A DNA stretch of 64,000 nucleotides from Pseudooceanicola spongiae (GTDB lineage Bacteria > Pseudomonadota > Alphaproteobacteria > Rhodobacterales > Rhodobacteraceae). Shown one piece after another: positions 36,845 through 54,746 of this stretch. The position numbers and the translations under genes were made by a program. How positions within the stretch are numbered: position 1 is the stretch's first letter; the number at the start of each line of letters is the position of its first letter. Under the pieces are notes generated by a model that made no database searches, had not been told where the DNA came from, and saw nothing but the letters and a program-made list of their open reading frames with translations. The stretch spans positions 3,449,501-3,513,500 of the forward strand of contig NZ_CP045201.1 of the NCBI RefSeq assembly GCF_014899185.1, given 5' to 3'.

Positions 36845-36858
36845 GCGGCTCAGGCGGG
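36836..36858. terminator. Hairpin shared by two converging stop codons
   Basis: A perfect 10-bp inverted repeat, CCCGCCTGAG and CTCAGGCGGG, with a 3-base loop. It contains the stop codons of both the MFS gene and the racemase-like gene. No T tract is seen, so it may protect 3' ends rather than terminate. Confidence 0.45.
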
Positions 36859-37626
36859 CGGATACATCAGCTTCAGCCGGTCTTGCCAGCGCGCTCCGCT
36901 CAGCCAGTCGGGCAGATCGGTCGCGCCCAGCGATTGCCAGTCGCGCGCCTGTACGGCCGCCCAGACCAGCGCGACATTGCACGAGATCGCCGGGATCAGC
37001 CCCTCCGCATGGCCCGCCAGCATCGGATAGAGCGTCGCCATCCCGGTGCCCAGCATCAGCACCGCATCCGCGCCACTGGCCGAAAGCTCGCGGTAGGCCG
37101 CCAGAACGCCATTGCCGGTCATGGCATAGATCGGGTGAAAGGCGTCTGTCTCCAGCGCCGGGCCGGTCTTGGCCACCACCTCGAACCCGAAACTCTCCCA
37201 GTAGGGGGTCGAGTGCCTGTTCAGGCTCTCGGGGTAGGGCGTCAGCAGGGCGATCTTTTTCGCCCCCATCAGCCGCAGCGCCGCGACCGAGGCCAGCGCC
37301 GCCGTCAGGAACGGCTTGCCGTGGCTGCTCTGCACCTCGTCGACCAGCCGGGCCTCGGCCTCTGCCCCGATCAGGTAGGATGCCCCGGTGCAGGCCGCCG
37401 CGATCACGTCGATCGGCGCATTGGCGAACTGGCCCGAGGTGGCGTTGAACTTGCCGGTGTAATCGACCAGCCGCGCCTCGATACTGTCCAGCGAGGAGGT
37501 CAGCCGCGCGTTCAGCATCGACCAATGCGGCGGCAGCAGCGCCCAAAGCTCGGGCTCAACCGTGGTATTGGCCTGAGGGGTCAGCACGCCGATGGTGCCG
37601 GCGTTGCCGTATTCCTTCACAGCCAT
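36850..37626 (-). CDS. Asp/Glu racemase-superfamily protein (maleate isomerase / arylmalonate decarboxylase-like)
   Basis: A 258-residue protein of the Asp/Glu racemase fold. It has IGVLTPQANTTVEPEL at the start, the first active-site cysteine region AAACTGASYLIG (Cys79) and KKIALLTPYPESLNRHSTPYWESFGF. Where maleate isomerases usually have their second Cys, this protein has VLMLGTGMATL, so only one nucleophilic Cys is in place; another Cys (216) lies later. It could be a maleate isomerase relative, decarboxylase or racemase. It overlaps the dctM gene by 10 bases, with GGGAG 7 bases before the ATG. Confidence 0.78.
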   Translation of the reverse strand: MAVKEYGNAGTIGVLTPQANTTVEPELWALLPPHWSMLNARLTSSLDSIEARLVDYTGKFNATSGQFANAPIDVIAAACTGASYLIGAEAEARLVDEVQSSHGKPFLTAALASVAALRLMGAKKIALLTPYPESLNRHSTPYWESFGFEVVAKTGPALETDAFHPIYAMTGNGVLAAYRELSASGADAVLMLGTGMATLYPMLAGHAEGLIPAISCNVALVWAAVQARDWQSLGATDLPDWLSGARWQDRLKLMYPPA

Positions 37627-38930
37627 CCCAAGACTCCCGGTAGCCAGAGGCTGAGCGCCGGGAACAGGATCAGGACGACCAGCCGGGCGATGTCAGCAAA
37701 GATGAAGGGCACGACGCCCCGGAAAATCGTGCGCAGCGGCAGGTCATGGGCCATGCCGTGCAGCACGAAGACGTTGATGCCGATGGGCGGGGTGATCATC
37801 CCCAGCTCGATCACCACGATATTGACCACGCCCCACCAGATCGGATCGTAGCCGAGGCCGATGATCAGCGGATAGACGAAGGGCAGGGTCAGCACCATCG
37901 CAGCAATGGTGTCGAAGATTGCGCCGAGGATCAGGTAGAAGACCATCAGCAGGCACAGCACCAGCAGCGGCGGCAAACCAAGGCTCTGGATCCATTCGAC
38001 CGTGGCCGAGGGCAGGCCCGACAGCGTCGCAAAGTAGGAAAACACCGAAGCCCCGATGATCATCACGAAGATCATGCCCGTGTTGGCGGCTGTATCGCCA
38101 AGCGCGGCGAGGAACTTGCGCACCGTCAGGCGACGCCGGAAGATCGCCAGCAGCAGCGACACGGTGGCCCCGACAGAGGCGGCCTCGCTGACCGTGAAGA
38201 TGCCGGAATAGATCCCGCCGGAGACGATCACGGCCAGCAGCACCACTGCCCAGCTCTGCGCCGTGACGCGCTTTCGCTCGGGCCAGCTGGTCCGCGCGCC
38301 CACCGGGGCGGCGTCGGGGTTGCGGCGCACCACGATGTAGACGGCGGCGAAATAGAACACGACCGCCAGAATGCCCGGCACCATCGCCGCCAGAAACAGC
38401 GCGATGATCGAGTTTTCGGTCAGGATGGCATAGAGGATCATCACCACCGAGGGCGGGATGATCATCCCCAGCGTGCCCCCCGCCGCGATGGAGCCTGCGG
38501 CCAGCGACTTGGCATAGCCGCGCGCCAGCATCTCGGGCAGGGCGATGCGCGCCATGGTGGCGGCGGTTGCGACCGACGACCCGCAGATCGCGCCGAACCC
38601 GGCGCAGGCGCCGATGGTGGCAAAGACCAGCCCGCCGCGCTTGTGCCCAAGATAGACATAGGCCAGCTTGTAGAGCTCGCGCGACAGCCCGCCGATATGG
38701 GCCAGGTTGCCCATCAGCAGGAACATCGCGATCACCGCAAAGCCCTCGGACGCCATGGAGGAGGACGGCTCGGTCGCCAGCAGCGTCAGCGCCGGGCCGA
38801 AGCCGATGATCAGGCCGCAGCCGACCACGCCGATCACGCCCATGGCGATGCCGACGGGCACCTGCAGCAGGATCAGCACGAACATCGCCGCAAGGCCCAG
38901 CAGGCCTGTGGTATAGGGGTCGGACATCAT
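37617..38930 (-). CDS. TRAP transporter large permease (DctM family)
   Basis: A 437-residue membrane protein with about 12 hydrophobic segments, the main channel subunit of a TRAP carboxylate transporter. DctM patterns include VPVGIAMGVIG, GAICGSSVATAATMARIALPEM, GSIAAGGTLGMIIPPSVVMILYAI and VNIVVIELGMITPPIGINVFVLHGMA near the end. It follows the small permease after 4 bases and overlaps the racemase-like gene. Sodium-coupled uptake of an organic acid is expected. Confidence 0.93.
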   Translation of the reverse strand: MMSDPYTTGLLGLAAMFVLILLQVPVGIAMGVIGVVGCGLIIGFGPALTLLATEPSSSMASEGFAVIAMFLLMGNLAHIGGLSRELYKLAYVYLGHKRGGLVFATIGACAGFGAICGSSVATAATMARIALPEMLARGYAKSLAAGSIAAGGTLGMIIPPSVVMILYAILTENSIIALFLAAMVPGILAVVFYFAAVYIVVRRNPDAAPVGARTSWPERKRVTAQSWAVVLLAVIVSGGIYSGIFTVSEAASVGATVSLLLAIFRRRLTVRKFLAALGDTAANTGMIFVMIIGASVFSYFATLSGLPSATVEWIQSLGLPPLLVLCLLMVFYLILGAIFDTIAAMVLTLPFVYPLIIGLGYDPIWWGVVNIVVIELGMITPPIGINVFVLHGMAHDLPLRTIFRGVVPFIFADIARLVVLILFPALSLWLPGVLGWL

Positions 38931-38934
38931 GATC

Positions 38935-39498
38935 TCACTTTGCCTCCAGGTCGGACATCACGTCCTCGTCGTCGCGCAGGGTGGCAAGCGCGGGCAGCTC
39001 GCCGCAGCGCAGCGTGGCGCGGATCCACTCCAGCGCGACATAGGCCTGCACCGGCACGCAGACGGCCATCACGGCGGTGGTCACATACCACCAGGGTGCC
39101 AGCGCCAGCCCGATGGTGCGGGTGGTGCGCCCGCCGTGTTCGAACTGGCCGGTCAGCCGGATGAACTGCCAGGTCAGCAGCGCAAAGAACACCAGCGTCA
39201 CCACCGCGCCAAGCGCCTCAAGCGCGGCATGCACCCGCGGCCCGCCAAAGGTGCCGAAGACGCGCACCGTCACATTGGTCTGGCGCAGCAGCCCTGCCGG
39301 AAAGCAGCTGGCAATGACGAGGGGAAAGACCACCTCGCCATAATCCGAAAAGCCCGAAATCCGGGGCAGCCAGAGATAGCGCGCCGCCCCGTCGTAGGTG
39401 ATCAGCAGCGCCATGATCACAAGGCCCGAAAACCCGATGAAGGCCGCGGTTTGCGTGATCCGGTCAAGTTTTTGGGCCGTGGTCATGGCGCGCTCCAT
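38935..39498 (-). CDS. TRAP transporter small permease (DctQ family)
   Basis: A 187-residue protein with four hydrophobic segments, the scaffold subunit pairing with DctM. Segments begin around AAFIGFSGLVIMALLITYDGAARYL, GEVVFPLVIASCFPAGLL, VVTLVFFALLTWQFIRL and WYVTTAVMAVCVPVQAYVAL. The first ATG shares a base with the dctP stop (TGATG); a second ATG four codons on has GGAG 6 bases upstream, so either could be used. Confidence 0.88.
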   Translation of the reverse strand: MERAMTTAQKLDRITQTAAFIGFSGLVIMALLITYDGAARYLWLPRISGFSDYGEVVFPLVIASCFPAGLLRQTNVTVRVFGTFGGPRVHAALEALGAVVTLVFFALLTWQFIRLTGQFEHGGRTTRTIGLALAPWWYVTTAVMAVCVPVQAYVALEWIRATLRCGELPALATLRDDEDVMSDLEAK

Positions 39499-40511
39499 CA
39501 GTTCTGGGTCCGCATCTCGGCCAGCAGGTCGAGGGCGGCGTCATAGACGGCCTGACCATTCGGCGTCGCCGCGATCCAGGCGTCGTGGATCGGCTTCACC
39601 GCTTCGCCGTAAGCCGCCATCTGGTCCTCGGTTGGCACCACGATGGCGATGCGTCCCTCGGCTTCGACCTCCTTGCGGATCTCCTCACCAGCGCCGGCAT
39701 AGGCGTCGCCCCCGGCCTGGGCAAAGGCCGCCCCGCCGTGCTTCATCACGATCTCCTGCAGCGCGGGTGGCAGGCTGTCCCATTTGCGCGCGTTCATCAG
39801 CAGCAGGAAGGGGATCGCCCCGGCGGGCACCTCGATGGCCTCGCTGACCAGCGGCAGCGACTTGAAGGTCTTCATGCCGGTCCAGCCCTGAATGGCGCCG
39901 TCAACCGTGCCCCGGCTCAGCCCTTCGTTGAACTCGGCCGAGCTCAGCGTCTGCGGCGCCGCGCCAAGGCTTTCCAGCCATTTCGCCTGAATCGCCCCGG
40001 CCGAGCGGATCTTGAGGTTCGACAGCCCCTCCAGCCCGCCAACCGCGTCCTTCATGAACAGCGCATTCGGCTCAGCCGCGAAAAAGCCGACGACATGCAC
40101 GCCGTCAAAGCCCGTCAGCAGCCCCATCTCGTTCAGCTTCCAACCGACGAGAGAGGCCTCCTGCGCCGTGCGGAACAGGAACGGCAGCTCGAACAGCCCC
40201 ATCTCGGGGAACTGCCCCGAGGTGTAGCCGGGCAGAACCCAGGTCACATCCGCGACGCCGTTCTGGACCAGCTCGAACTGCTTGAACGGGTCCTTGCCCA
40301 GCGTGCCGCCCCAGAAGGGCTGCATGCGCACGCTGTCCCCGGCTTCGGCCTGCACGGCCTCCAGCCAGGGCTTGATCACCTTGGCGACCCCGGTGCTCTG
40401 TTCCGGCACGAACGAGCCGACCTTGATGCTGTCCTGTGCCAGCGCCGGGCTGGCAAGGGACGACGCGAGCGCAACAGCCAGCGTGCTGGCGAGTGTTCTG
40501 AAGTGCAACAT
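39498..40511 (-). CDS. TRAP transporter solute-binding protein (DctP family)
   Basis: A 337-residue periplasmic binding protein. The signal peptide is MLHFRTLASTLAVALASSLASPALA. The DctP fold shows GSFVPEQSTGVAKVIKPWLEAV, the conserved arginine segment LKIRSAGAIQAKWLESLGAAPQTLSSAEFNEGLSRGTVDGAIQG, and LPLVSEAIEVPAGAIPFLLLMNARKWDSLP. That arginine normally salt-bridges a carboxylate ligand. AAGGAAG lies about 9 bases before the ATG. Ligand is unknown. Confidence 0.92.
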   Translation of the reverse strand: MLHFRTLASTLAVALASSLASPALAQDSIKVGSFVPEQSTGVAKVIKPWLEAVQAEAGDSVRMQPFWGGTLGKDPFKQFELVQNGVADVTWVLPGYTSGQFPEMGLFELPFLFRTAQEASLVGWKLNEMGLLTGFDGVHVVGFFAAEPNALFMKDAVGGLEGLSNLKIRSAGAIQAKWLESLGAAPQTLSSAEFNEGLSRGTVDGAIQGWTGMKTFKSLPLVSEAIEVPAGAIPFLLLMNARKWDSLPPALQEIVMKHGGAAFAQAGGDAYAGAGEEIRKEVEAEGRIAIVVPTEDQMAAYGEAVKPIHDAWIAATPNGQAVYDAALDLLAEMRTQN

Positions 40512-40549: not shown

Positions 40550-42049
40550 TTAATCCGCGCCCGCCCCGAACCTTCTGAGGGTCGGTGGCGTGGTCGGAAG
40601 GGTCGTGGTCTTTTCTTCGGTGTAGAACGCCTCGCAGGCGGCCCCACCCTCGCGGCCCACGCCGGAGGTCTTGTAGCCCCCGAAGGGCGCGCGCAATTCG
40701 CGCATCATCGGCGTGTTCACCCAGACCACGCCCGAGCGCAGGCGCGGCGTTGTCGCCATCACCGTCGGCAGGTCATCGGACCAGACATAGCTGACCAGCC
40801 CGAAGGCCGTGTCGTTGGCAATGGCCACGGCCTCGTCGGCGGTGTCGAAGGGCAGGAAAGTGGCGAAGGGGCCAAAGATCTCGTCCTGCGCACAGCGATC
40901 CGCGTTGGAACTGGCACAGACCGCCGTCGGCGCGATGAAATAGCCCTCGCCCAGATCGTGGCGGCGCGCGCCCCCAGTCAGCAGCCGCCCGCCATCGCCG
41001 CGCGCCGCATCGACAAAGCTCAGCACCCGGTTCATATGCGCCAGCGAGGCCAGAGGCCCCACCTCGGTCGCATCGTCCAGCGGATCACCGACCCGGACCT
41101 GTTCGGCCCGGGCGCGGAACTTCTCGGTGAAATCGTCAAAGATCGACCGCTCCAGCAGAATCCGCGACCCCGCCAGACATTGCTGCCCGTTGTTCGAAAA
41201 GATGCCCTGCAGCGCGCCATCCAGCGCGCGCTCCTGATCGGCGCTGGCAAAGATGATATTGGCGGATTTGCCGCCCAGCTCCATCGTGCAGGGCACAAGG
41301 TTGCGCCCCGCCGCCGACATGATCGAACGCCCGGTTTCGGTGCCGCCGGTAAAGCTGATCAGATCGACGCCGGGATGCGCCACCAGTGCCGCCCCGGTCA
41401 CCGAACCCCGCCCGTTCACCAGATTGAGCACGCCCTCGGGCAGCACCTCCTGCAGCAACGCGACCAGCCGCGCCAGCGCCAGCGGCGTCTGCTCTGAGGG
41501 TTTCAGCACGCAGGTATTGCCGAAGGCCAGCGCCGCCGCGATCTTCATCGTCGCCAGCGCCACCGGCGCATTCCACGGTGCGATCAGGGCCGCAACGCCC
41601 ACCGGCTCGCGCGTCACCGTGGTCAGATAGCCCTCGGTCTGGGTATAGCTCTGCCCGGCGGACTGGCTGATGTATTCGGCAAAGAAGCGAAAGTTGTAGG
41701 CCGCGCGCACCATGTGCCGGGCGCGCAATTCCCGCAGCACTAGCCCGGTCGCGGCGCATTCCAGACGCGCCAGCTCATCGACATTGGCCAGGATCGTGGC
41801 GCGGCAGGCCTCCAGCACCTCGATGCGCTTGGCGACGCTCAGCGTCGGCCAGGGGCCCGTGTCAAAGGCCCGGCGCGCGGCGGCAACAGCGTGATCCACC
41901 GCTGCGCCGTCATCCTCGGTCAGCGTCGAAATCTGTGCCCCCGTCGCCGGATAGAAGACGGGAATGTCGATGCCGCCGCCGCTGCTGGCGGTGCCGTTGA
42001 TCAGGCCGCCGACGCGGGCGGGCGGCTGGATTGGCAACTCAAAGCTCAT
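40550..42049 (-). CDS. Aldehyde dehydrogenase
   Basis: A 499-residue NAD(P)-dependent aldehyde dehydrogenase with all key residues: oxyanion Asn160 (APWNAP), general base Glu257 (MELGGKS) and nucleophile Cys291 (NNGQQCLAGSRI). The C-terminal FGGYKTSGVGREGG is also canonical. It lies between the flavin monooxygenase and the TRAP genes, so it likely oxidises a semialdehyde arising in the same catabolic route. AGGAGAG lies 7 bases before the ATG. Confidence 0.93.
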   Translation of the reverse strand: MSFELPIQPPARVGGLINGTASSGGGIDIPVFYPATGAQISTLTEDDGAAVDHAVAAARRAFDTGPWPTLSVAKRIEVLEACRATILANVDELARLECAATGLVLRELRARHMVRAAYNFRFFAEYISQSAGQSYTQTEGYLTTVTREPVGVAALIAPWNAPVALATMKIAAALAFGNTCVLKPSEQTPLALARLVALLQEVLPEGVLNLVNGRGSVTGAALVAHPGVDLISFTGGTETGRSIMSAAGRNLVPCTMELGGKSANIIFASADQERALDGALQGIFSNNGQQCLAGSRILLERSIFDDFTEKFRARAEQVRVGDPLDDATEVGPLASLAHMNRVLSFVDAARGDGGRLLTGGARRHDLGEGYFIAPTAVCASSNADRCAQDEIFGPFATFLPFDTADEAVAIANDTAFGLVSYVWSDDLPTVMATTPRLRSGVVWVNTPMMRELRAPFGGYKTSGVGREGGAACEAFYTEEKTTTLPTTPPTLRRFGAGAD

Positions 42050-42083: not shown

Positions 42084-43256
42084 TCATGTCAGCGCCTCGG
42101 CGCGGCGCAACCCGGTGATCATGGAGGAGCGCATCAGAAAGGCCTTGGCGCGCTCGGCGTCCCCGGCAATGGCGCGCAGGTTCTCCAGCTGGGCCAGACG
42201 CTCCTGCGTGTCGGTGGTGTTCATGCGGCGGCGGTTCTCATCGGCCTGCGCCAGAATGTCGTCGCGCGCGATGGGGCGGCGCTGCGCCTCGTAGGCGTCC
42301 AGCAGCGCCGCATCCGCGCCCTGCGCGACCGCGATCAGCTTGTCGGCCAGATTGAAGACGTCGTGAATACCGCCGTTCATGCCCATCCCGCCCTTGGGGC
42401 TGTTCAGATGCGCCGCATCCCCGGCGAGGAACATCATGCCCTGCCGATAGGTCGAGGCGACGCGCCGGTGCACCCGGTAGACCCGCTTTTCGACGATATC
42501 GATATCGCCCGCATCGGGGATGACACTGCGCGTCTGCGCCCGGATCGAGGCGTCGCTAATCGCGTCTTCGACGTCCTGATCTGTCTCGGGGTGCAGCGAC
42601 ACGCGCCACAGATCAGGCAGGCGCAGCAGCGAATAGGTGCCGCCCGGCTTCCAGATGTAGTTGACGCCCGACAGCCCCTCCAGGTGATCCTCGAAGGCAA
42701 AGGTCGTGGTCACCAGAATCGTGTTCTCGGGATAGGTCGCCCCCTCGAACCCCGCGCCGATGGCCTTGCGCACGACACTGCGCGCGCCGTCACAACCGAC
42801 CAGCGCCCAGCCCTCATGCGCCTCGCCATTGACGCTGAGCGTCACGCCGTCGCTGTCCTGAGTGACCTCTCCGACCTCGGCGTCAAACACCACCGTGCCC
42901 TCGGGCAGCAGCGCGTACAGTGCCCGGCTCAGCTCGGCCTGACGGCATTGCAGGCGATAGGGGTGGTCGGTCTCGCCCGCCAGCACACCCAGATCGAACT
43001 CGGCCTTCTCGCCCGTCGCGTGCATCCGGATCTGCCACGTCGGCGTGATCCGTCCCTTGGCGATCAGCGTCTCGGTGATGCCCGACTCCGCGAACATGTC
43101 CAGCGTCGGGGGATGAAAGGTCGAGGCGCGCAGCTGATCGGAAATCTCGCTCTCTGCCTCGAAAACCTTCACCGGCAGTCCCGCAGACACCAGTCGCCAC
43201 GCCAATGTCAGCCCGACCGGCCCCGCACCCACGATGAGTATTGTCTTCTTCGCCAC
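42084..43256 (-). CDS. FAD-dependent aromatic monooxygenase
   Basis: A 390-residue class A flavoprotein monooxygenase. The FAD motif is ILIVGAGPVGLTLAWRL, the DG motif is ALVGCDGARSVVRKAIG and the GD motif is FLAGDAAHLNSPKGGMGMNGG. Such enzymes hydroxylate phenolic or heteroaromatic acids with NAD(P)H and O2. It starts with GTG, preceded at 8 bases by GGGGA. It is first in the minus-strand operon, divergent from a GntR regulator across an AT-rich dyad region, which suggests the regulator senses its substrate or product. Confidence 0.9.
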   Translation of the reverse strand: MAKKTILIVGAGPVGLTLAWRLVSAGLPVKVFEAESEISDQLRASTFHPPTLDMFAESGITETLIAKGRITPTWQIRMHATGEKAEFDLGVLAGETDHPYRLQCRQAELSRALYALLPEGTVVFDAEVGEVTQDSDGVTLSVNGEAHEGWALVGCDGARSVVRKAIGAGFEGATYPENTILVTTTFAFEDHLEGLSGVNYIWKPGGTYSLLRLPDLWRVSLHPETDQDVEDAISDASIRAQTRSVIPDAGDIDIVEKRVYRVHRRVASTYRQGMMFLAGDAAHLNSPKGGMGMNGGIHDVFNLADKLIAVAQGADAALLDAYEAQRRPIARDDILAQADENRRRMNTTDTQERLAQLENLRAIAGDAERAKAFLMRSSMITGLRRAEALT

Positions 43257-43311
43257 GTCTCATGTCCCCTCAGGAAGCAGGCCTGCTTCCATGTCTTGAA
43301 TTGATATAATG

Positions 43312-43342: not shown

Positions 43343-43348
43343 AGATAT

Positions 43349-43365
43349 ATCATTGAGTCAATGAT
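43349..43365. promoter_or_regulatory. 7-bp inverted repeat: candidate GntR operator, site 2
   Basis: ATCATTG and CAATGAT with a 3-base spacer, directly after site 1 and about 38 bases before the GTG start of the GntR gene. It may be a second half-site set for autoregulation. Confidence 0.45.
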
Positions 43366-43402
43366 TAGAGTGCAGCTGCCTGACAGAATTTATGGAAGCG
43401 AC

Positions 43403-44233
43403 GTGACAGCCCAAAAAAGCCCCACTCTCGATCCCAGCTCGCCCGTGCCGCTGTATCAGCAGCTCTATGTGCTTTTGCGCAGCCAGATCCACGCCGGCCC
43501 GCTGGCCCCCGGCGACAAGATCATGGGCGAGGCAGAGCTTTGCGCCGCCTTCGATGTCTCGCGCATCACGGCCAAGCGGGCGCTGAACGAACTGGCCGAC
43601 AGCGGGCTGGTGGTGCGTCAGCGTGGCCGGGGCACCCGCGTCTCGGATCGCATTCCGCCGCGCCCGATCAAGTCCAGCATCGACGGGCTGCTGGAAACCG
43701 TTGGGCAGATGGGGCGCACCACTTCCGTCAAGGTGCTCTCCTCCGGCCTCACCCTCGCCCCGCCCGAGGTGCTGTCGCGCCTTGCTCTGGCACCGGGCGC
43801 GCGCGCCATGCAGGCCCTGCGCGTGCGTTCGCTCGGCGATCAGACGCTGTCCTATGTCGAGACATGGGTCCCCGAGGATATCGCCGCGCTGGTCGAGGGG
43901 CAGGATGCCTCGCGCACGCCGCTGCTGTTGCTGCTGGAGCAGGCCGGTGTGCCTGTCAGTGCCGCGACCCAGACGATCACCGCGACGCTGGCCGATGCCA
44001 CCTCGGCCGCCGCGCTGAACATTCCTGCCGGTGCGCCGCTGATCGACACCCGCCGCGTCGTCTATGATTCCTCGGACCGCCCGGTCGAGTTCATCAAGGT
44101 GCTCTACCGCCCCGAACTCTATCAGTTCGAAATGTCGATGCGCCGGGTCCAGAGCGACACCGGGCGCGCCTGGATTTCCGACCAGCCCGACGCGCGTGGC
44201 ACCCCCAAAGATCCCCCTCCCGAAAGCCCCTGA
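43403..44233 (+). CDS. GntR-family transcriptional regulator (HutC/UTRA type)
   Basis: A 276-residue regulator. The winged-helix domain has PLYQQLYVLLRSQIHAGPLAPGDKI and MGEAELCAAFDVSRITAKRALNELADSGLVVRQRGRGTRV; the C-terminal UTRA ligand domain runs from about 100 to 245 (with YVETWVPEDIA and EFIKVLYRPELYQFEM). The chosen GTG has GGAAG 4 bases upstream. An in-frame ATG at 43361 lies inside an inverted repeat and lacks a ribosome site. It probably controls the divergent monooxygenase/TRAP operon and the following hydrolase gene. Confidence 0.9.
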   Translation: MTAQKSPTLDPSSPVPLYQQLYVLLRSQIHAGPLAPGDKIMGEAELCAAFDVSRITAKRALNELADSGLVVRQRGRGTRVSDRIPPRPIKSSIDGLLETVGQMGRTTSVKVLSSGLTLAPPEVLSRLALAPGARAMQALRVRSLGDQTLSYVETWVPEDIAALVEGQDASRTPLLLLLEQAGVPVSAATQTITATLADATSAAALNIPAGAPLIDTRRVVYDSSDRPVEFIKVLYRPELYQFEMSMRRVQSDTGRAWISDQPDARGTPKDPPPESP

Positions 44234-44251
44234 CCCCGAAAGCCCTTCAAG

Positions 44252-44863
44252 ATGCCCCATGATTTCGACCTCAGCCGCACCGCCCTGCTGACCATCGACC
44301 TGCAGAACGACTTTCTGCACCCCGAGGGCGCCTATGGCCGCGCCGGGCAGGCCAGTGACGAGATCGCCGCGCTGCCCGCCCGTGTCCTGCCCGTGATCGA
44401 GGCGATGCGCGCCCGGGGTGGCAGCTATGTCTCGGCGCAGTTCACGCTGGTGCCGCGTCATGACGGCGACCCACTGATCGCGCCACACCTCAAGACCCTG
44501 AGGCCGTTTCTGGGGCGCGGTGACTTTGCCCCCGGCAGCTTTGGTCACGATCTGGTCGACAGCCTGCAACCGGCGGATTTCACGGTGGAAAAGGTCAACT
44601 ACTCGGCCTTTTACCAGACCCGGCTGGAATATATCCTCAAGGCCATCGGGGTCGATACGCTGATCGTTGGCGGCATTGTCACCAACGGCGGCGTCGCCAG
44701 CACCCTGCGCGATGCGCATCTGCGCGGCATCCATACGATCCTGCTGTCGGACGGCTGCGCCACCTTCTCGCCCAAGGTCCACGAGGCAACGCTGATTTCG
44801 CTCGGCTCGGTGACCGAAATCATGACCTGCGCCGAGGCAGCGGCGATGATCACCGCTGCCTGA
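44252..44863 (+). CDS. Isochorismatase-superfamily protein without the catalytic cysteine
   Basis: A 203-residue protein with the isochorismatase fold: Asp16 in LLTIDLQNDF, Lys114 in TVEKVNYSAF and the loop GGIVTNGGVASTLRDA. Cysteine hydrolases of the family have Cys at position 147 of this loop (TNxCV); here it is Gly. The Asp and Lys remain. Isochorismate-cleaving members such as PhzD also work without that Cys, so a vinyl-ether or other non-amidase reaction is possible; so is a binding-only role. It follows the GntR gene by 18 bases. Confidence 0.85.
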   Translation: MPHDFDLSRTALLTIDLQNDFLHPEGAYGRAGQASDEIAALPARVLPVIEAMRARGGSYVSAQFTLVPRHDGDPLIAPHLKTLRPFLGRGDFAPGSFGHDLVDSLQPADFTVEKVNYSAFYQTRLEYILKAIGVDTLIVGGIVTNGGVASTLRDAHLRGIHTILLSDGCATFSPKVHEATLISLGSVTEIMTCAEAAAMITAA

Positions 44864-44883
44864 CACCCCTTAAGGCCGCCGCA

Positions 44884-45744
44884 TCATTCGTAGGTCGCGG
44901 CGGTCTCCAGCATCTCGGGCAGGCCGATCACCTCGTTGAGCTCGTCAAACAGCGCCATGCGGTCCTGAAACGGTGCGTTGCTGCCATTGGCCTTCAAGCT
45001 GGCGTAATAGGCCTGCCCCTGCCGCAGCATGGCGCGGGCGATTCCGCCGGGAAAGATCACCAGCCGGAAGCCGCGCGCATGCAGCGCCTCGGCCGAGCCC
45101 ATGGGCGTCTGCCCGCCCTCGACCATATTGGCCAGCAACGGCAGCCGCCCGGCAAAGCGTTCGGCAATCTGCGCCATATGCTCAAGCGAGCGCGGCGCCT
45201 CGATGAACAGCACATCCGCTCCGGCGTCCGCATACATCCCGGCCCGCTCCAGCGCGGCTTCAAAGCCCTCGACCGCAATGGCATCGGTGCGCGCGATGAT
45301 CTGAAAGCGGTCGGACTGGCGGGCATCGACGGCGGCGCGGATCTTGCCGACCATCTCCTGCGCCGGGATCAGCTTCTTGCCCGCAAGGTGGCCGCAGCGC
45401 TTGGGAAAGCTCTGGTCTTCCAGCTGGATCGCCTGCGCGCCCGCGCGCTCGAACCCGCGCACCGTGCGCTGCACGTTCATCGCATTGCCGAACCCTGTGT
45501 CGCCATCCACGATCAGCGGCAACCCGACGCGATCCGTGATCAGCTCGATCGTGGCAATCACCTCTGAGACGGAGACGAGGCCGATATCGGGCCGCCCCAG
45601 CCGGGTATAGGCAATCGAGGCGCCCGACAGGTACAGGCAGTCGAACCCGGCCTGTTCGGCCAGCAGCGCGGTAAAGGGGTCATACACCCCGGGCGCCACG
45701 ATGCCGCGTGCGGGGTCGGCCAGAAGGGTTTTCAGATCAGTCAT
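44884..45744 (-). CDS. Isocitrate lyase/PEP mutase family lyase
   Basis: A 286-residue TIM-barrel enzyme. Metal ligands lie in VDGDTGFGN (Asp80, Asp82), and the flexible catalytic loop carries Lys115-Arg-Cys117-Gly-His119. The KxCGH Cys marks carbon-carbon lyases (2-methylisocitrate or 2,3-dimethylmalate lyase) rather than phosphomutases. ARTDAIAVEGFEAALERAG and ANMVEGGQTP also fit. It likely splits a substituted malate into pyruvate plus an acid. The ATG overlaps the upstream GntR stop by 4 bases. Confidence 0.88.
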   Translation of the reverse strand: MTDLKTLLADPARGIVAPGVYDPFTALLAEQAGFDCLYLSGASIAYTRLGRPDIGLVSVSEVIATIELITDRVGLPLIVDGDTGFGNAMNVQRTVRGFERAGAQAIQLEDQSFPKRCGHLAGKKLIPAQEMVGKIRAAVDARQSDRFQIIARTDAIAVEGFEAALERAGMYADAGADVLFIEAPRSLEHMAQIAERFAGRLPLLANMVEGGQTPMGSAEALHARGFRLVIFPGGIARAMLRQGQAYYASLKANGSNAPFQDRMALFDELNEVIGLPEMLETAATYE

Positions 45745-46553
45745 GTGTCGGCTCCGCTCGTGCTGTCTTTGGAGGTCCAGAAATCCGCCGCCTTGGTGTG
45801 GCTGCGGTCATATTCCATCTCGTGTTCATAGGTGTCGGGGCGGTAGAGGCCGTTGATATATTCGACCACCTCGCCCGCATCGTCGTAGACCAGCCGGCGC
45901 ACCGACAGCAGCGCCTCGCCCACCTCGATGCGCAGCAGCTGCGCGACTTCGGGGGCGGCCAGCTTGGCGGTGATCGCCTGACGGGCGCTGGCGATGCGAT
46001 GGCCCGCGCGCTCGATCAGGCGCAACAGCGGCGTGCGCTGCATTTCCTCGGGTGTGAAGCTGCGCCCGATCGCCTCGGGCAGCCAGGTGGTGAGGTGGCT
46101 GAACGGCACCCCGTCCAGGCTGCGCACCCGTACAGCGCGCTGCATCACCGTGCCGACGGGCTGCCCCATGGCGGCGCAGATATGCGGCGGCACGACGTCA
46201 TAGCTCAGCGAGACAAGCGCCACATCCGTCTGCAGGCCAAGCGCCAGCAGGTTCTCGATATTGCCCGACAGGCTGGCCGTGACGGGCGAGGGGCGGCCTA
46301 CGTCGCGCGCAAAGGTGCCACGCCCGCGCTGCCGCTCGACCCGGCCTTCCTGCGACAGCCGGTCCATCGCCTTGCGGATGGTGATGCGCGAGACGTCAAA
46401 GCGCGCCGCCAGCGCCAGTTCGCCCTGCATCGGGGCATCGCCGGAATAGACGCCCTCCTCGATCTCCTGGCGCAGGATCAGATAGACGCGGTGATGCTTC
46501 GGCCAGGGGCTGTCCTCGCTCGTATGGCCTGCGGCGGCGCGCGCATCTGTCAT
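45741..46553 (-). CDS. GntR-family transcriptional regulator (HutC/UTRA type)
   Basis: A 270-residue regulator with a winged helix (HHRVYLILRQEIEEGVYSG, then MQGELALAARFDVSRITIRKAMDRLSQEGRVERQRGRGTFA) and a UTRA domain (about 105-245, with HLTTWLPEAIG and EYINGLYRPDTYEHEM). AAGGA lies 6 bases before the ATG. It is cotranscribed with the lyase gene and divergent from the tripartite tricarboxylate transporter genes, so it probably senses their substrate. It is related to the other GntR of this island. Confidence 0.9.
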   Translation of the reverse strand: MTDARAAAGHTSEDSPWPKHHRVYLILRQEIEEGVYSGDAPMQGELALAARFDVSRITIRKAMDRLSQEGRVERQRGRGTFARDVGRPSPVTASLSGNIENLLALGLQTDVALVSLSYDVVPPHICAAMGQPVGTVMQRAVRVRSLDGVPFSHLTTWLPEAIGRSFTPEEMQRTPLLRLIERAGHRIASARQAITAKLAAPEVAQLLRIEVGEALLSVRRLVYDDAGEVVEYINGLYRPDTYEHEMEYDRSHTKAADFWTSKDSTSGADT

Positions 46554-46622
46554 GGCTTTTCCTTCAGGACATACCCGTTTCAGGCGATTGTTACCCAATC
46601 ATTCCCCCGAACCCAAGTCCAA

Positions 46623-46642
46623 ATGTTATATTGACATGACAT
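46623..46642. promoter_or_regulatory. Candidate operator between GntR-lyase and transporter operons
   Basis: ATGTTAT and ATGACAT form an imperfect dyad (one mismatch) around ATTGAC. It lies in the AT-rich gap between the divergent operons, about 70 bases before one start and 60 before the other, a suitable place for the GntR protein. Confidence 0.45.
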
Positions 46643-46704
46643 TAAGACTTGATAGCTTCAGCGGCGACCGGGCCCCAAGCCCGTGCACGTCTAGGGAGGA
46701 CATC

Positions 46705-47733
46705 ATGCAGAGATTTTCAGGCGCCGCGCGCCGCCGTTTCATCACCTTCGCCGCTTCGGCCTTTGGCGCTGTGGCGCTGGGCGCGACCAGCCTCGCCGTC
46801 ATGCCCGGTGCCGCCCGCGCCGCAGACGACTGGCCGCAGGACCCGATCACCATCGTCGTGCCCTTCAAGGCCGGTGGCTCGGCGGACCGCATGGCGCGCA
46901 CGCTGGCCGAACCGATGGGGGCCGAGCTTGGCGTGCCGGTCGTGGTGGAAAACCGTCCCGGTGGGGCAGGCGGCCTCGGCGCGACCTACGTCAGCCGTCA
47001 GGACCCCGACGGCAACACCCTGCTGCTGATGCAGGCGACGCCCTACCTCGCCAATGCGATCCTGGTCGGCGGCGCCCCGGTGAAGTGGGAGGATTTCGCC
47101 TTCCTCAACGCCCAGTGGAACGACTACGCCATCGTCGCCGTGCACAAGGACAGCCCCTACCAGACCTTCGCCGATCTGGTCGAGGCGATGAAGGAGCCGG
47201 GCAAGGTCTCCTCCGGCATCATCTACGCCAATGGCGGCCACCTGCAGACCCTCGTCGCGATGGAGGCGCTGGGCATCCCCGACGCCAACGTCCGTTTCGT
47301 CACCTATGACGGCGGCGCACCGCTGCGCACGGCCCTCGCCGGCAATCAGGTCGATTTCGAGGTCCTCGCCGCCAATGGGGCGGATGCGGTCATGGACAGC
47401 CTGCGTGTGCTCGCCGTGGTCAATGACACCAACCCCGACAACATGGACGCGCCCCTGCTCAACGACGCCCTGACCGCGCTGGGGGCCGAGCCGACCGCGA
47501 TCATCGGTGGCAATATCACCGGCCTGCTGGTGCCCGCCGCCTTCGAGACGGACTACCCGGAGCGCTATTCCAAGCTGGTCGCGGCCTACAAGACCGTCGT
47601 CGAATCGGCTGAATACAAGGACATCGCTGCGCAGTCCGGCCTCGGCTCCGATTGGGTCGGACCAGAGGCCAGCCAGAAGCTGATCGACGATGCCTATCAG
47701 GCGCTGTCCAAGCTCAGCGACGTGGTGAACTGA
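46705..47733 (+). CDS. Tripartite tricarboxylate transporter substrate-binding protein (TctC/Bug family)
   Basis: A 342-residue periplasmic binding protein with a twin-arginine-like leader (ARRRFITFAASAFGAVALGATSLAVMPGAARA). The Bug fold shows PITIVVPFKAGGSADRMARTL, VENRPGGAGGLGATYVSRQDPDGNTLL and FVTYDGGAPLRTALAGNQVDF. Bug proteins bind small carboxylates through water-bridged loops. GGAGG lies 5 bases before the ATG. It starts the operon tctC-tctB-tctA-leuC-like-leuD-like. Confidence 0.92.
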   Translation: MQRFSGAARRRFITFAASAFGAVALGATSLAVMPGAARAADDWPQDPITIVVPFKAGGSADRMARTLAEPMGAELGVPVVVENRPGGAGGLGATYVSRQDPDGNTLLLMQATPYLANAILVGGAPVKWEDFAFLNAQWNDYAIVAVHKDSPYQTFADLVEAMKEPGKVSSGIIYANGGHLQTLVAMEALGIPDANVRFVTYDGGAPLRTALAGNQVDFEVLAANGADAVMDSLRVLAVVNDTNPDNMDAPLLNDALTALGAEPTAIIGGNITGLLVPAAFETDYPERYSKLVAAYKTVVESAEYKDIAAQSGLGSDWVGPEASQKLIDDAYQALSKLSDVVN

Positions 47734-47807
47734 TCCCACGCCGCGCCCCATGACCGCTGCGCCGGGCCCACCCCGGCGCAGCACACCACCCGAGCAGGAC
47801 CAGACAG

Positions 47808-48284
47808 ATGGCACACCCGACAGACCCCGACACCTCCGCCCCCCGCCGCCGCTGGGGGCCTCTGGTCTTTGCCGCGCTGCTGGCGCTGGCCATGCTTGTC
47901 TACGCATGGTCGGTGATGGGGATCGCCCGCGGGCTGACCGACTGGCTGCTGATCCTGCCCGTGGCGCTGATCGGCGCGGTGGCCGCCCTCTGGGCCGGTG
48001 TCGCCGACATGAAGCCCCTCACCGGCCTCGCCAAAACGGTCGAGCGGACCTGGGGCGAGGACACGAAGCCGATCCTGCTGCTGGTGCTGACCGGCGCCTA
48101 CGCCTGCGCCGCGCCCTTCGCCGGATTTGATGTCGGCACGGCGGTATTCATCCTGCTGGCGCTGCTGCTGCAGGGCGAACGCAGCTGGTGGAAACTGGCG
48201 CTCGCCTCTCTCGCCGGGGCCGCACTGATGACCTGGATCTTCACCGATCTGCTCAGCGTGCGCCTGCCGACCCTGCTTTTCTGA
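47808..48284 (+). CDS. Tripartite tricarboxylate transporter small permease (TctB family)
   Basis: A 158-residue membrane protein with four hydrophobic segments (VFAALLALAMLVYAWSVMGIA, LLILPVALIGAVAALWAGVA, ILLLVLTGAYACAAPFAGFDVGTAVFILLALLL and ALASLAGAALMTWIFTDLL). Length and pattern match TctB. It lies between the binding protein and the large permease. AGGA is 8 bases before the ATG. Confidence 0.85.
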   Translation: MAHPTDPDTSAPRRRWGPLVFAALLALAMLVYAWSVMGIARGLTDWLLILPVALIGAVAALWAGVADMKPLTGLAKTVERTWGEDTKPILLLVLTGAYACAAPFAGFDVGTAVFILLALLLQGERSWWKLALASLAGAALMTWIFTDLLSVRLPTLLF

Positions 48285-48305
48285 CGACCCCCCGGGAGTC
48301 CCCAC

Positions 48306-49805
48306 ATGCTCGACCTCACCGCGCTTTCCGATGCTTTCACGCTGCTGGGCAGTGATCCTCTGGCCTGGCTGGTGGTGATCCCCGGCCTGCTGATCGGCCT
48401 GATCTTCGGCGCGATTCCGGGCCTGTCGATCTCCATCGCCATGGCGGTGTTCCTGCCCGCCACGCTATACATGGATTTCCTGCCCGCCATCCTGTTTCTG
48501 ACGGCGATTTTCACGGGCGGCGGCTTTGGCGGCGCGGTGCCCGCCATCCTGATGAACATCCCCGGCACCTCCAGCGCCGTCGCCACAGCCTTTGACGGCT
48601 ACCCCATGTCCCAGCAGGGCCGTCACGGAGAGGCGCTTGGCGCCGGGCTGGTCGCCTCGGCCATCGGCACGCTGTTCGGCTACATCATCCTGCTGTTCCT
48701 CGTCAGCCCCGTCGCCTCCTGGGTGCTGCAACTCGGCCCGACCGAGATGCTGGTGGTGGCGATCTGGGGCCTGCTGCTGATCGCGGTGCTGAACGATTCC
48801 TCGGTGGCCAAGGGGCTGGCGGCGGGGATGCTTGGCATCCTGATCAGCACCATCGGCTATTCCGACACCGGGCTGATGCGCGGCACCATGGGCTCGATGT
48901 ACCTGCTCGACGGCATCCCCGCGATCCCGGCGCTGATCGGCCTGTTCGCCGCGTCCGAGCTGATCAACATGACCGGCCGCGACTACCTCGTTGCCGACCG
49001 CGAGATGCGCAAGATGCGGCTGCGTCCGATCCTCAGCGGCGCGGCCGACACGCTGCGCAACTGGCCGAGCGTGCTGCGCGGCTCGGCCCTCGGCACGCTG
49101 ATCGGCATCATTCCCGGCGTCGGGGCCAGTGTCGCAAACCTTGCCTCCTACGCCGCCGCCAAGCGGCTGTCGGATGACCCCGCCAGCTTCGGACGCGGCA
49201 ACATGGACGGCGTCGTCGCCTCCGAATCGGCCAATTCCTCGTCCGAGGGCGGCGGCATGGTGACGCTGCTGGCGCTCGGACTGCCCGGCGGCGCGGGCAC
49301 GGCGATCCTGCTTGGCGCCTTCGCGATGCACAATGTCACCGGCGGGCCACGCTTCATCTCGCAGAACACCGATGTGGTCTATGCGCTGATCCTCGGCAAT
49401 ATCGTCCAGGCGATCCTGCTGCTTGGCGTCGGGCTGGTCTTCGTCTTCCTCGCCAGCTCGATCGTCAAGATCCGCCTCAGCTACCTGATCCCCTTCGTGC
49501 TGTCGGTGTCGATGATGGGGGCCTATGCGATCACCGGCTCGATGGTCGGCCCGTTCACCGTGGCGGGGGCAGGGGCGCTCGGCTGGGTGATGCGGCGCTA
49601 CGGCTTTCCCGTCACCGCCACCGTCGTCGGCCTGCTGATCGGCCCCATGGCCGAGGGAGAGCTGACGCGCTCCTGGCAGATCTCGGGTGGCGATCCGGCG
49701 TTTCTGCTGACCCGCCCGATCACGCTGGTGATGCTGGCGATCCTCGCAGTGATCCTGAGCGTGCTGCTGCTCAGCCGCCGCCGTGGCCGCGCCCTCAGCG
49801 CCTGA
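48306..49805 (+). CDS. Tripartite tricarboxylate transporter large permease (TctA family)
   Basis: A 499-residue permease with about 11-12 hydrophobic segments. Typical TctA blocks are GLIFGAIPGLSISIAMAVFLPAT, GGGFGGAVPAILMNIPGTSSAVATAFDGYPMSQQGRHGEALG and GIIPGVGASVANLASYAAAKRLSDDPASFGRGNMDGVVASESANSSSEGGGMVTLLALGLPGGAGTAILL, with glycine-rich substrate loops. GGGAG lies 7 bases before the ATG. It should import the carboxylate processed by the adjacent hydro-lyase and lyase. Confidence 0.95.
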   Translation: MLDLTALSDAFTLLGSDPLAWLVVIPGLLIGLIFGAIPGLSISIAMAVFLPATLYMDFLPAILFLTAIFTGGGFGGAVPAILMNIPGTSSAVATAFDGYPMSQQGRHGEALGAGLVASAIGTLFGYIILLFLVSPVASWVLQLGPTEMLVVAIWGLLLIAVLNDSSVAKGLAAGMLGILISTIGYSDTGLMRGTMGSMYLLDGIPAIPALIGLFAASELINMTGRDYLVADREMRKMRLRPILSGAADTLRNWPSVLRGSALGTLIGIIPGVGASVANLASYAAAKRLSDDPASFGRGNMDGVVASESANSSSEGGGMVTLLALGLPGGAGTAILLGAFAMHNVTGGPRFISQNTDVVYALILGNIVQAILLLGVGLVFVFLASSIVKIRLSYLIPFVLSVSMMGAYAITGSMVGPFTVAGAGALGWVMRRYGFPVTATVVGLLIGPMAEGELTRSWQISGGDPAFLLTRPITLVMLAILAVILSVLLLSRRRGRALSA

Positions 49806-49818
49806 GAAGGACACCCCA

Positions 49819-51189
49819 ATGACCCATCCCCGCACCACCGTCGCCAAGATCTGGGACGCCCATCGCATCCTGTCGGACGCGGGCTCTGACCTGCTCTGGA
49901 TCGACCGGCATTACCTGCACGAAGGCAGCCACCACGCCTTCGCCCGCCTGCGGACGGGCAACCGCCCCCTGCGCCATCCAGAGCTGACGTTCGGCGTGGC
50001 AGATCACTACGCCCCCTCGGCGCAGGCCCGCGCGACCGAGGTCACCGGCACCATGATCGCCCGCCTGCAGCGCAACACGTCCGATTTCGGCGTCGACAGC
50101 TTTGGCATGGGCGATCCGCGCCGGGGCATTGTCCATGTCGCCATGCCCGAACAGGGGCTGACGCTGCCCGGCCTCAGCATCGTCTGTGGTGACAGCCATA
50201 CGGCAACGCATGGCGCTTTCGGAGCCTTCGCCTTTGGCATCGGCGCCTCCGAGGTGGCGCATGTGCTGGCGACCCAGACCCTCTGGCAAAAGCCGCCGCC
50301 CGTCATGCGCATCCGCGTCACCGGCACCCTGCCGCAGGGCACCACGGCCAAGGACCTCGCGCTGGCGATCATCGGCCAGATCGGCACCGGCGGCGCGACC
50401 GGGCACGCAGTGGAATACGCCGGCCCCGCCATCGCCGCCCTCAGCATGGAAGAGCGTATGACGCTCTGCAACATGACGATAGAGATGGGCGCGCGCTCCG
50501 GCCTCGTGCCCGCAGATCAGACCACCTTCGACTGGCTCAAGGGCCGGCCCATGGCCCCCACTGGCGCAGATTGGGACGCCGCCGTGGCCGAATGGCGCAC
50601 CCTCGCGCCGGACGAAGGGGCCACCTATGACCGCGATGTCGCGCTGGACGCGGGCACGGTCGCGCCGATGGTCACATGGGGCACCAGCCCCGAACAGGTC
50701 GCTCCGGTCACCGGGCGCATCCCCGCCGATGCCACGCCCGACTCGCTGTCCTACATGGGCCTCACGGCGGGCGCTCAGATCGACAGCATCGCCATCGACC
50801 GCGCCTTCATCGGCTCCTGCACGAATGGCCGTCTGGCCGATCTGCAGGCCGCGGCACGCATCCTCAAGGGCCAGCGCGTCGCCGTCCCCCTGCTGGTCTC
50901 GCCAGGGTCCGAGGCGGTCGCGCGGCAGGCCGAAGCCTCCGGCCTTGCCGATATCTTCCGCGCGGCCGGGGCCGAGTGGGGCGCCAGTGGCTGCTCGCTC
51001 TGCGTCGGCATGAACGGCGATCAGGTGGCGGCGGGCGAACGCTGCGCCTCGACCTCCAACCGTAACTTCCGTGGCCGTCAGGGCCCCGGCGCGCGCACCC
51101 ACCTGATGAGCCCCGAAATGGTCGCCGCCGCCGCCCTGACCGGGCGCATCACCGACGCCCGCGCCCTGTCCGCAAAGGCCACACCATGA
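49819..51189 (+). CDS. LeuC-like hydro-lyase large subunit (aconitase superfamily)
   Basis: A 456-residue protein close to 3-isopropylmalate dehydratase large subunit. WIDRHYLHEGSHHAF replaces the usual SPQAF region, while CGDSHTATHGAFGAFAFGIGASEV and the cluster cysteines (IGSCTNGRLADLQ and GCSLCVGMN) are intact, so a 4Fe-4S enzyme is expected. Location in a transporter operon, not with leuB, suggests a catabolic paralogue acting on citraconate, methylmaleate or a similar acid. AAGGA lies 8 bases before the ATG. It overlaps the leuD-like start by 4 bases. Confidence 0.88.
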   Translation: MTHPRTTVAKIWDAHRILSDAGSDLLWIDRHYLHEGSHHAFARLRTGNRPLRHPELTFGVADHYAPSAQARATEVTGTMIARLQRNTSDFGVDSFGMGDPRRGIVHVAMPEQGLTLPGLSIVCGDSHTATHGAFGAFAFGIGASEVAHVLATQTLWQKPPPVMRIRVTGTLPQGTTAKDLALAIIGQIGTGGATGHAVEYAGPAIAALSMEERMTLCNMTIEMGARSGLVPADQTTFDWLKGRPMAPTGADWDAAVAEWRTLAPDEGATYDRDVALDAGTVAPMVTWGTSPEQVAPVTGRIPADATPDSLSYMGLTAGAQIDSIAIDRAFIGSCTNGRLADLQAAARILKGQRVAVPLLVSPGSEAVARQAEASGLADIFRAAGAEWGASGCSLCVGMNGDQVAAGERCASTSNRNFRGRQGPGARTHLMSPEMVAAAALTGRITDARALSAKATP

Positions 51190-51815
51190 CCCCGATCACC
51201 ACCCTCACCGGCACCGCCGCCGCCCTGCCGCGCGCCAATGTCGACACCGACCAGATCATCCCGGCCCGCTTCATGAGCCGGTCGCGCACCGATGGTTATG
51301 GCGATCAGTGCTTTCACGACCTGCGCTTTGACGAAGCCGGCGCGCCGCGCGCCGACTTCCCGCTCAACGACCTCGCTCAGGCGCCGGGGATCCTCGTTGC
51401 GGGCGACAACTTTGGCTGTGGGTCCTCAAGAGAGGCCGCAGTCTATGCCCTGCTCGACTACGGCGTCGCCGCCGTCATCGCGCCCAGTTTCGCCGATATC
51501 TTCCGTTCCAACGCGGGCAAGAATGGCCTGCTGACCATCGCGCTGGACGCGGAGACGGTGCAGAGCCTGACCGACATGCTGACCGATCAGCCTGCCATGC
51601 CCGCCGACATCGACCTGCCCGCGCAGCGCCTGACCATTGGCCCCCGTCAGCTGGACTTCGACATCGACGCCCGCCTCAAGCACCGCCTGATCAACGGCCT
51701 CGACGACCTTGCTGCGACCCTGCAGGACCTGCCCCGGATCGAGGATTTCGAGGGCCGCTATTACGCCGCCCGCCCCTGGGCGATCCCGCAAAAGCAAACC
51801 GCCGCGCAGGGTTAG
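51186..51815 (+). CDS. LeuD-like hydro-lyase small subunit (aconitase superfamily)
   Basis: A 209-residue small subunit with the swivel-domain patterns NVDTDQIIPARFMSR, DNFGCGSSREAAVYAL and IAPSFADIFRSNAGKNGLL. In typical LeuD the motif reads GSSREHA; here His is replaced by Ala, a hint of a changed substrate. It pairs with the preceding large subunit (4-base overlap) to form the active hydro-lyase. The 3' end of the gene overlaps the terminator of the opposite-strand ugp operon. Confidence 0.87.
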   Translation: MTPITTLTGTAAALPRANVDTDQIIPARFMSRSRTDGYGDQCFHDLRFDEAGAPRADFPLNDLAQAPGILVAGDNFGCGSSREAAVYALLDYGVAAVIAPSFADIFRSNAGKNGLLTIALDAETVQSLTDMLTDQPAMPADIDLPAQRLTIGPRQLDFDIDARLKHRLINGLDDLAATLQDLPRIEDFEGRYYAARPWAIPQKQTAAQG

Positions 51816-51829
51816 CCCCCACGCGGCGG
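51788..51829 (-). terminator. Terminator of the ugp operon
   Basis: On the minus strand CGCCGCGT ... GCGCGGCG-type arms (8-bp perfect stem CCGCCGCG with CGCGGCGG) are followed by GTTTGCTTTTGC. It lies 20 bases past the ugpC stop and partly inside the end of the leuD-like gene. Confidence 0.65.
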
Positions 51830-51848
51830 TGTCGCAAAGCCCGAAAGT

Positions 51849-52895
<1,047 letters not shown>

Positions 52896-52897
52896 GG

Positions 52898-53746: not shown

Positions 53747-53759
53747 TGCTCTGGCCCTC

Positions 53760-54722: not shown

Positions 54723-54746
54723 GGGAATGCTCAGGTCAGGACCTGA

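Follow-up and report, generated by a model that had tools for sequence, protein, structure and literature searches.

The present analysis deals with a stretch of 64,000 nucleotides from Pseudooceanicola spongiae (hereafter the window), which lies inside the single 4.37 Mb contig of the source genome, and with a set of genes at positions 44884 to 51815 that codes for a carbon-carbon lyase, a GntR regulator, a tripartite tricarboxylate transporter and a LeuC-LeuD-like pair. Our data indicate, with a probability of about 0.6, that the LeuCD-like pair and the lyase catalyse the two final steps in the breakdown of a substituted maleate-type acid. Genes labelled 3-isopropylmalate dehydratase and isocitrate lyase/phosphoenolpyruvate (PEP) mutase family were found to be physically tied in 46 of 290 genomes of the family, mostly also to hydantoinase genes, which points to a common catabolic route, apparently undescribed and without a function in the literature searched. 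A published gene set like this was not found in the titles and abstract beginnings searched, a weak absence as subscription papers and preprints were thinly covered. The preliminary description of this DNA had named the following genes, and these and their location were borne out by the open reading frames and by Pfam and NCBIfam scans.

44884..45744, minus strand: carbon-carbon lyase of the isocitrate lyase (ICL)/PEP-mutase superfamily with a KRCGH loop, 286 amino acids (Pfam PF13714, 158.9 bits)
45741..46553, minus strand: GntR/UTRA regulator (Pfam UTRA and GntR); start set from the codon score, with a further open TTG upstream at 46598
46705..47733, plus strand: TctC, binding protein of a tripartite tricarboxylate transporter (Pfam PF03401, 62 bits); ATG start with GGAGG upstream
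47808..48284, plus strand: TctB (Pfam PF07331, 45.7 bits)
48306..49805, plus strand: TctA (Pfam PF01970, 400 bits)
49819..51189, plus strand: LeuC-like large subunit, aconitase family (TIGR00170, 584.6 bits against a cut-off of 560.25, scored on the longer frame 49783-51189)
51186..51815, plus strand: LeuD-like small subunit with GSSREAAVYAL (TIGR00171, 172.5 bits against a cut-off of 116.25)

The lyase and GntR genes overlap by 4 nt at 45741-45744 and are divergent from TctC-TctB-TctA-LeuC-LeuD, which are closely spaced (gaps of 74, 21, 13 and -4 nt) and probably form one operon. All three transporter proteins score above their Pfam cut-offs. An inverted repeat was sought between this GntR gene and TctC and none was found at the settings used; an Rfam search of 42000-56200 gave zero matches. 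We infer the following reactions and their order. The LeuCD-like pair would hydrate an acid of the form R1-C(COO-)=C(R2)-COO- to a 2-hydroxy-2-R1-3-R2-succinate (a substituted malate), and the lyase would cleave this to a 2-oxo acid, R1-CO-COO-, and a carboxylic acid, R2-CH2-COO-. This form of the substrate is proposed because it is needed by the chemistry of an aconitase-type hydratase followed by this lyase. Uptake of the acid, or of a near precursor, could be the task of the tripartite transporter, and its sensing that of the GntR whose gene overlaps the lyase gene. In most relatives the acid is probably made by opening of a cyclic amide or imide, because hydantoinase A/B and an isochorismatase-like protein are encoded there next to both enzymes.

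The comparison set consisted of 290 genomes of the family, about one per genus. Neighbourhoods were read to about 10 kb on either side of a locus, several loci being cut, and genes in the relatives were labelled by similarity to reference proteins taken from the same loci. It was found that 50 of the 290 genomes carry an orthologue of the lyase (E <= 1e-85; identity to the window lyase 57-76%, the window itself apart), and an aconitase-type pair is present in the neighbourhood of the lyase in 46 of these, LeuCD-like in 35 and HacA/DmdB-type in 11. The neighbourhoods of the other four end at contig ends: in G041, G119 and G139 the lyase and the LeuD motif are on separate contigs and the lyase is adjoined by hydantoinase A, isochorismatase-like and flavoprotein genes, and in G142 the contig edge comes after HyuB. 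The Ala-type LeuD motif seen in the window occurs in 40 genomes of the family. There are 39 motif loci besides the window, and at 34 a lyase of at least 55% identity lies in the stretch read; the remaining five comprise L131, L132, L147 and L150, all close to the end of a contig, and L146, whose lyase is divergent (42%). Loci picked for their LeuD motif give circular evidence about the motif itself; the count based on the lyase is independent. Over the 290 genomes both lyase and motif are present in 38, the motif alone in two (G010 and G212), the lyase alone in 12 and neither in 238 (Fisher p = 1.5e-34, uncorrected for descent). The pairing exceeds chance, and a chance neighbourhood was rejected on the conserved pairing and the co-occurrence counts. 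The core idea of the preliminary description, an aconitase-type hydratase feeding a carbon-carbon lyase, thus has strong comparative support from the 46 of 50 genomes. Its module of hydratase, lyase, transporter and GntR is also upheld. The set is no peculiarity, the lyase being present in 50 of 290 genomes, and the reading in that description was incomplete in leaving out the hydantoinase A/B and the isochorismatase-like protein of most versions.

The best argument for a hydration step comes from a change of enzyme at the same place. A different aconitase-type pair directly adjoins the lyase in 11 genomes (G004, G090, G126, G128, G158, G162, G164, G182, G227, G245 and G253). Three of these pairs were scanned, and their large subunits score above the PRK00402, TIGR01343 and TIGR02086 cut-offs and their small subunits above that of TIGR02087, the 'LeuD/DmdB family' (142-169 bits); the remaining eight were recognised by similarity to the scanned ones (large subunits 58-73%). 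The window LeuD reaches 78.2 bits with TIGR02087, under the cut-off of 108.95. The hydratase types are intermixed on the lyase tree, with five changes by parsimony, of which well-supported branches force only one. Since aconitase-type pairs of different kinds take the same position, hydration is argued to be the conserved element, and addition or removal of water to be a step of the route.

Hydantoinase A was found near the lyase in 48 of the 50 lyase genomes (the exceptions are the window and G263); 47 have HyuB there and 48 an isochorismatase-like gene (all except G263 and G245, the latter at a contig edge). Because hydantoinase A and the isochorismatase-like protein are each there in 48 of 50, the lyase clusters look like ring-opening catabolic clusters. 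The 39 motif loci include a tautomerase in 31, a flavoprotein in 28 and a tripartite ATP-independent periplasmic (TRAP) binding protein in 25. The one flavoprotein scanned gave 249.7 bits with flavocytochrome c (cut-off 285) and a lower score, 163 bits, with TcuA (cut-off 369); for HyuA and HyuB, one of each being scanned, caprolactamase subunits were nearest, far under cut-off. In a genus that belongs to a different class of the phylum, two genomes carry, in place of the hydantoinase, proteins weakly like the allantoinase PuuE (118 and 108 bits, one scanned per genome, against a cut-off of 424.6). Hydantoinase-type clusters are carried by Sulfitobacter pontiacus, Azospirillum ramasamyi, Roseomonas haemaphysalidis, Paraburkholderia largidicola and Neorhizobium petrolearium; in S. 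pontiacus DSM 110277 the cluster is located on a plasmid. Plasmid 2 of Variovorax sp. RA8 (L236) has isochorismatase-lyase-LeuC-LeuD with a RibBA-like gene, an LLM flavin oxidoreductase and a flavin reductase, and is perhaps another ring-opening variant.

Two further arrangements were observed among the clusters. MmgE/PrpD proteins adjoin the lyase in versions with an ATP-binding cassette (ABC) transporter (L215, L238 and L239). A CaiB-type coenzyme A (CoA)-transferase, for which succinate-glutarate CoA-transferase is the best model, under cut-off, lies within HyuBA-isochorismatase-LeuCD operons at L212 and L221.

The labels of the window LeuC and LeuD raise the question of leucine synthesis. 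The genome has a second LeuC at C1:3722391 (53-56% identity to the window LeuC), after which come a LeuD of the His type and a leuB-like gene, the latter named from reading of its sequence; no leuB was found near the window pair. Because of this second leuC-leuD with its leuB-like gene the window pair is not needed for leucine synthesis, and a leucine role was rejected. On the LeuC tree the window protein groups with those of L008 and L118 (support 100) and then with the other cluster LeuCs (support 90), apart from the leucine copies. The three cluster cysteines of LeuC are present (C333, C391 and C394, numbered from 49822). The motif region of the window LeuD reads GCGSSREAAVYAL, and the corresponding sequence is GSSREHAPWAL both in the other LeuD of the genome and in Escherichia coli LeuD, so that SSREAAVYAL has Ala at the position of their His. 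The preliminary description had reported this Ala correctly. It had also taken it as a hint of a new substrate; the change itself is real, and a role of it in setting the substrate is not supported. In 11 relatives the small subunit is of an entirely different type. The same description had raised the case of a genome with no other leuCD copy, which was checked and led to the second leuC-leuD.

The lyase has a Pfam PEP_mutase match, and its loop reads FPKRCGHLAGKK. Its residues D53, D80, D82, E109, K115-H119, R152, E182 and N206 are identical in the aligned E. coli PrpB. Among these, D80, D82, K115-H119 and E182 align with PrpB D85, D87, K121-H125 and E188, which we take to be the Mg-binding Asp pair, the KRCGH loop and the catalytic Glu. 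With the NCBIfam prpB model TIGR02317 it scores 295.8 bits, under the cut-off of 354.4, and neither prpC nor prpD was found among the open reading frames scanned beside it. Profile scores against solved structures were 247 for PrpB, 240 for petal death protein and 212 for dimethylmalate lyase, and a Foldseek search with a lyase model of pLDDT 87 (predicted local distance difference test) ranked PrpB and petal death protein nearly equal; the scores are too close to separate the three. The local motifs FIEAP and VEGG resemble petal death protein, and the total score slightly favours PrpB.

The order lyase-GntR / TctCBA-LeuC-LeuD is identical in G263 (L118), at 46-80% identity. In a metagenome-assembled genome of the Hyphomicrobiales these genes are split between contigs, TctA-LeuC-LeuD being on a small one and GntR-lyase (80%) on a second. 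Skermanella mucosa carries TctCBA-LeuC-LeuD-lyase in a single run; its LeuD is of the His type and its lyase belongs to another branch, and the run is apparently an independent assembly of the design of the window. Lyase (73%), GntR and TctCBA are together on plasmid NZ_CP090153 of Roseivivax marinus. G192, of the same genus as the window, gave neither a LeuD-motif nor a lyase match at the thresholds used.

The preliminary description omitted the genes directly to the left of the lyase, which are as follows.

44252..44863, plus strand: isochorismatase-like protein (Pfam PF00857, 118.8 bits), with Gly at the usual Cys nucleophile; an orthologue of the protein that most relatives have near their lyase
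43445..44233, plus strand: second GntR/UTRA regulator, GntR1 (Pfam UTRA/GntR); start uncertain, a TTG at 43334 being possible
42084..43256, minus strand: FAD-dependent monooxygenase (FMO), possible member of the catabolic region (Pfam FAD_binding_3, 198.5 bits; nearest solved PnpA and HspB)
40550..42049, minus strand: aldehyde dehydrogenase (ALDH), possible member (NCBIfam HpaE, 489.5 bits, under the cut-off of 638)
37617..40511, minus strand: TRAP transporter, possible member, with DctM at 37617-38930, DctQ at 38935-39498 and DctP at 39498-40511 (TIGR00786, 303.7 bits, and NF037995, 80.2 bits, both above cut-off); DctQ was assigned from its position, the family scan giving no match for it
36850..37626, minus strand: arylmalonate decarboxylase/maleate isomerase-like (AMDase-like) protein, possible member (Pfam Amdase, 57.1 bits; nearest solved maleate isomerases)

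The isochorismatase-like protein probably belongs to the route because it is 67-72% identical to seven aligned copies from lyase clusters of Rhodobacterales. It keeps D16 and K114 of the Asp-Lys-Cys triad and has the Cys replaced. All 34 copies extracted, that of the window included, read TNGG here, and the relatives in L006 and L173, which do bear the cysteine, read TSGC. True isochorismatases carry Gly at this place. A function as half-amidase is weakened by the Gly, and an amidase role is doubtful. It was also observed that an inverted repeat with 20-nt arms, 85% complementary, lies at 43302-43352 between the FMO and GntR1 coding regions, a possible operator. To the right of the module, at 51849-56066 and convergent with LeuD, is an ABC transporter of sn-glycerol-3-phosphate type with UgpB above its model cut-off, which is probably unrelated.

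Several observations weigh against a joint hydratase-lyase route. The missing amidase cysteine of the isochorismatase-like protein weakens its upstream half. The 24.8 kb read for the R. marinus plasmid set gave a match to neither LeuC nor LeuD, the rest of that genome not being searched, and this is evidence against LeuCD being obligatory. Outside the family, in a sample of the class, a lyase of at least 55% identity was present at only two of 12 SSRE[AG]AVYA loci, some of the stretches being short, and in Tistrella the lyase is on another plasmid than the motif locus. On the LeuC tree two plasmid LeuCs branch on the same side as the cluster group and just outside it, and one of them, L216 of Variovorax, adjoins an annotated leuB. 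Both the window LeuC and the window LeuD still score above the leuC and leuD model cut-offs.

Small R groups, as in citraconate or dimethylmaleate, are possible because of the petal-death-protein-like motifs FIEAP and VEGG of the lyase. In this special case of the hydratase-lyase route, put forward in the preliminary description (which also named methylmalate as a candidate), citraconate or dimethylmaleate would be taken up and hydrated, and the citramalate or dimethylmalate so formed would be cleaved to pyruvate plus acetate or propionate. The chemistry is the same as that of DmdAB and dimethylmalate lyase, and entries named isopropylmalate/citramalate isomerase exist in the PDB. A leuC gene product of M. 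jannaschii is reported to have maleate hydratase activity (PMC8307300). However, such small acids need no hydantoinase, tautomerase, TcuA-like flavoprotein or glutarate-type CoA-transferase of the kind found in the relatives, though few relatives have the CoA-transferase and not all have the flavoprotein. We regard the restriction to small acids as tentative, one possibility within the wider proposal.

It could be argued that the whole of 36850-51815 is one pyridine-type pathway in which the FMO hydroxylates the ring, maleamate and maleate follow later and LeuCD is a maleate hydratase that forms D-malate. The FMO resembles HspB and PnpA, and isochorismatase-like and maleate-isomerase-like genes are present. 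The same genome has a second cluster at L187 7743-17270 (G000:C1:2448000-2467900) with an FMO, an AMDase-like and a PuuE-like protein, short-chain dehydrogenases/reductases, an isochorismatase with Cys and a lyase paralogue, alongside an ABC transporter. Close homologues of the FMO (at least 67%) adjoin an ALDH in L188 to L191; GntR1 and TRAP genes are present with them in L188 and L189, and an AMDase-like gene in L189, L190 and L191. In G233, AMDase-like, FMO (53%) and ALDH-like genes (the latter by reading) begin about 1.4 kb past its lyase. Shared neighbourhoods of this kind are a link, short of proof, between ring oxidation and the hydratase-lyase module. Against a single pyridine-type pathway, no ring-cleaving dioxygenase or deformylase was found among the open reading frames scanned, which were part of those in the region. 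Maleate isomerase has two catalytic cysteines, but the window AMDase-like protein keeps the first (AACTGAS) and has MLGTGM at the second place, the L006 paralogue having both; the isochorismatase-like protein has Gly at the nucleophile place. A separate GntR accompanies the FMO set, and just 19 of the 290 genomes gave FMO matches at E up to 1e-60. On balance this pathway seems rather unlikely.

A larger tricarboxylate substrate, or a larger dicarboxylate product, of the hydratase-lyase route is hinted at because CoA-transferase genes adjoin the cluster in a few relatives, a minority of loci and all under cut-off. A CaiB protein in the operon of Tistrella (and of three near-identical loci) and in G900 has succinate-glutarate CoA-transferase as best model (533 and 513 bits, cut-off 750); G116 has a like CoA-transferase adjoining the cluster (535 bits, under cut-off) and an acyl-CoA dehydrogenase. 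When eight type-B loci were read beyond the flavoprotein, genes of CoA-transferase or acyl-CoA-dehydrogenase type were found only at G116 and G279. An improbable extension is that the module is the pathway end for maleimides with alkyl substituents that derive from tetrapyrroles, for example haematinic acid (3-carboxyethyl-4-methylmaleimide). The imide would be opened by hydantoinase or PuuE-like enzymes, the half-amide hydrolysed and, if needed, a double bond added by the TcuA-like flavoprotein; the LeuCD-like pair would act like a homoaconitase, the lyase would give pyruvate and glutarate, and the glutarate might then be taken by the glutarate-type CoA-transferase and acyl-CoA dehydrogenase. 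If true, such a route would be a counterpart of the methylcitrate cycle extended by one carbon, and marine bacteria could use it to feed on chlorophyll, haem and bilin debris.

That the pair is a redundant isopropylmalate isomerase, that the lyase acts as methylisocitrate lyase or oxaloacetate decarboxylase and that the neighbourhood has no joint meaning is very doubtful, for although LeuC and LeuD exceed the leuC and leuD cut-offs and PrpB is the best-scoring solved relative of the lyase (about equal to petal death protein in Foldseek), there is a separate leuCD with a leuB-like gene, the lyase is under the prpB cut-off with no prpC or prpD among the open reading frames scanned beside it, and the pairing is conserved with two hydratase types.

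If the proposed hydratase-lyase route is right, many marine and soil bacteria have such copies mislabelled as leucine-pathway genes, and the route would represent a new carbon or nitrogen source. Known systems share parts of this design. The itaconate/methylsuccinate cluster of Cupriavidus and pseudomonads has MmgE/PrpD, acyl-CoA dehydrogenase and, nearby, a tripartite-transporter binding protein (PMC12290011), and some relatives of the window module also carry MmgE/PrpD. It differs in working via CoA esters, and LeuC and isopropylmalate do not occur in the text searched (PMC12290011). LeuCD, the 3-isopropylmalate isomerase, is of the same family as the window pair, with the same sizes and iron-sulfur cysteines; the window pair departs from it in having no leuB nearby, SSREAAVYAL for SSREHAPWAL and PARFM for PKQFL in LeuD, and a branch of its own on the LeuC tree. 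PrpB, the 2-methylisocitrate lyase, shares fold, catalytic residues and 40% identity with the window lyase, which however is under the prpB cut-off, reads FIEAP for FPEAI and VEGG for TEFG, and has no prp genes among the adjoining open reading frames scanned. Petal death protein resembles the window lyase in its FVEAP, IEGG and C-terminal FNE stretch; unlike it, it is a plant enzyme, and it is not known to have a hydratase partner. In nicotinate-fermenting Eubacterium, dimethylmaleate hydratase DmdAB is followed by 2,3-dimethylmalate lyase. This system is like that of the window in that an aconitase-type two-subunit hydratase precedes an ICL-superfamily lyase acting on a substituted malate, and the likeness goes further in the 11 relatives with another pair, three of which, when scanned, score above the LeuD/DmdB model. 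Unlike DmdAB, the window pair is of LeuCD type and is accompanied by a transporter, and its relatives stand with hydantoinase A/B.

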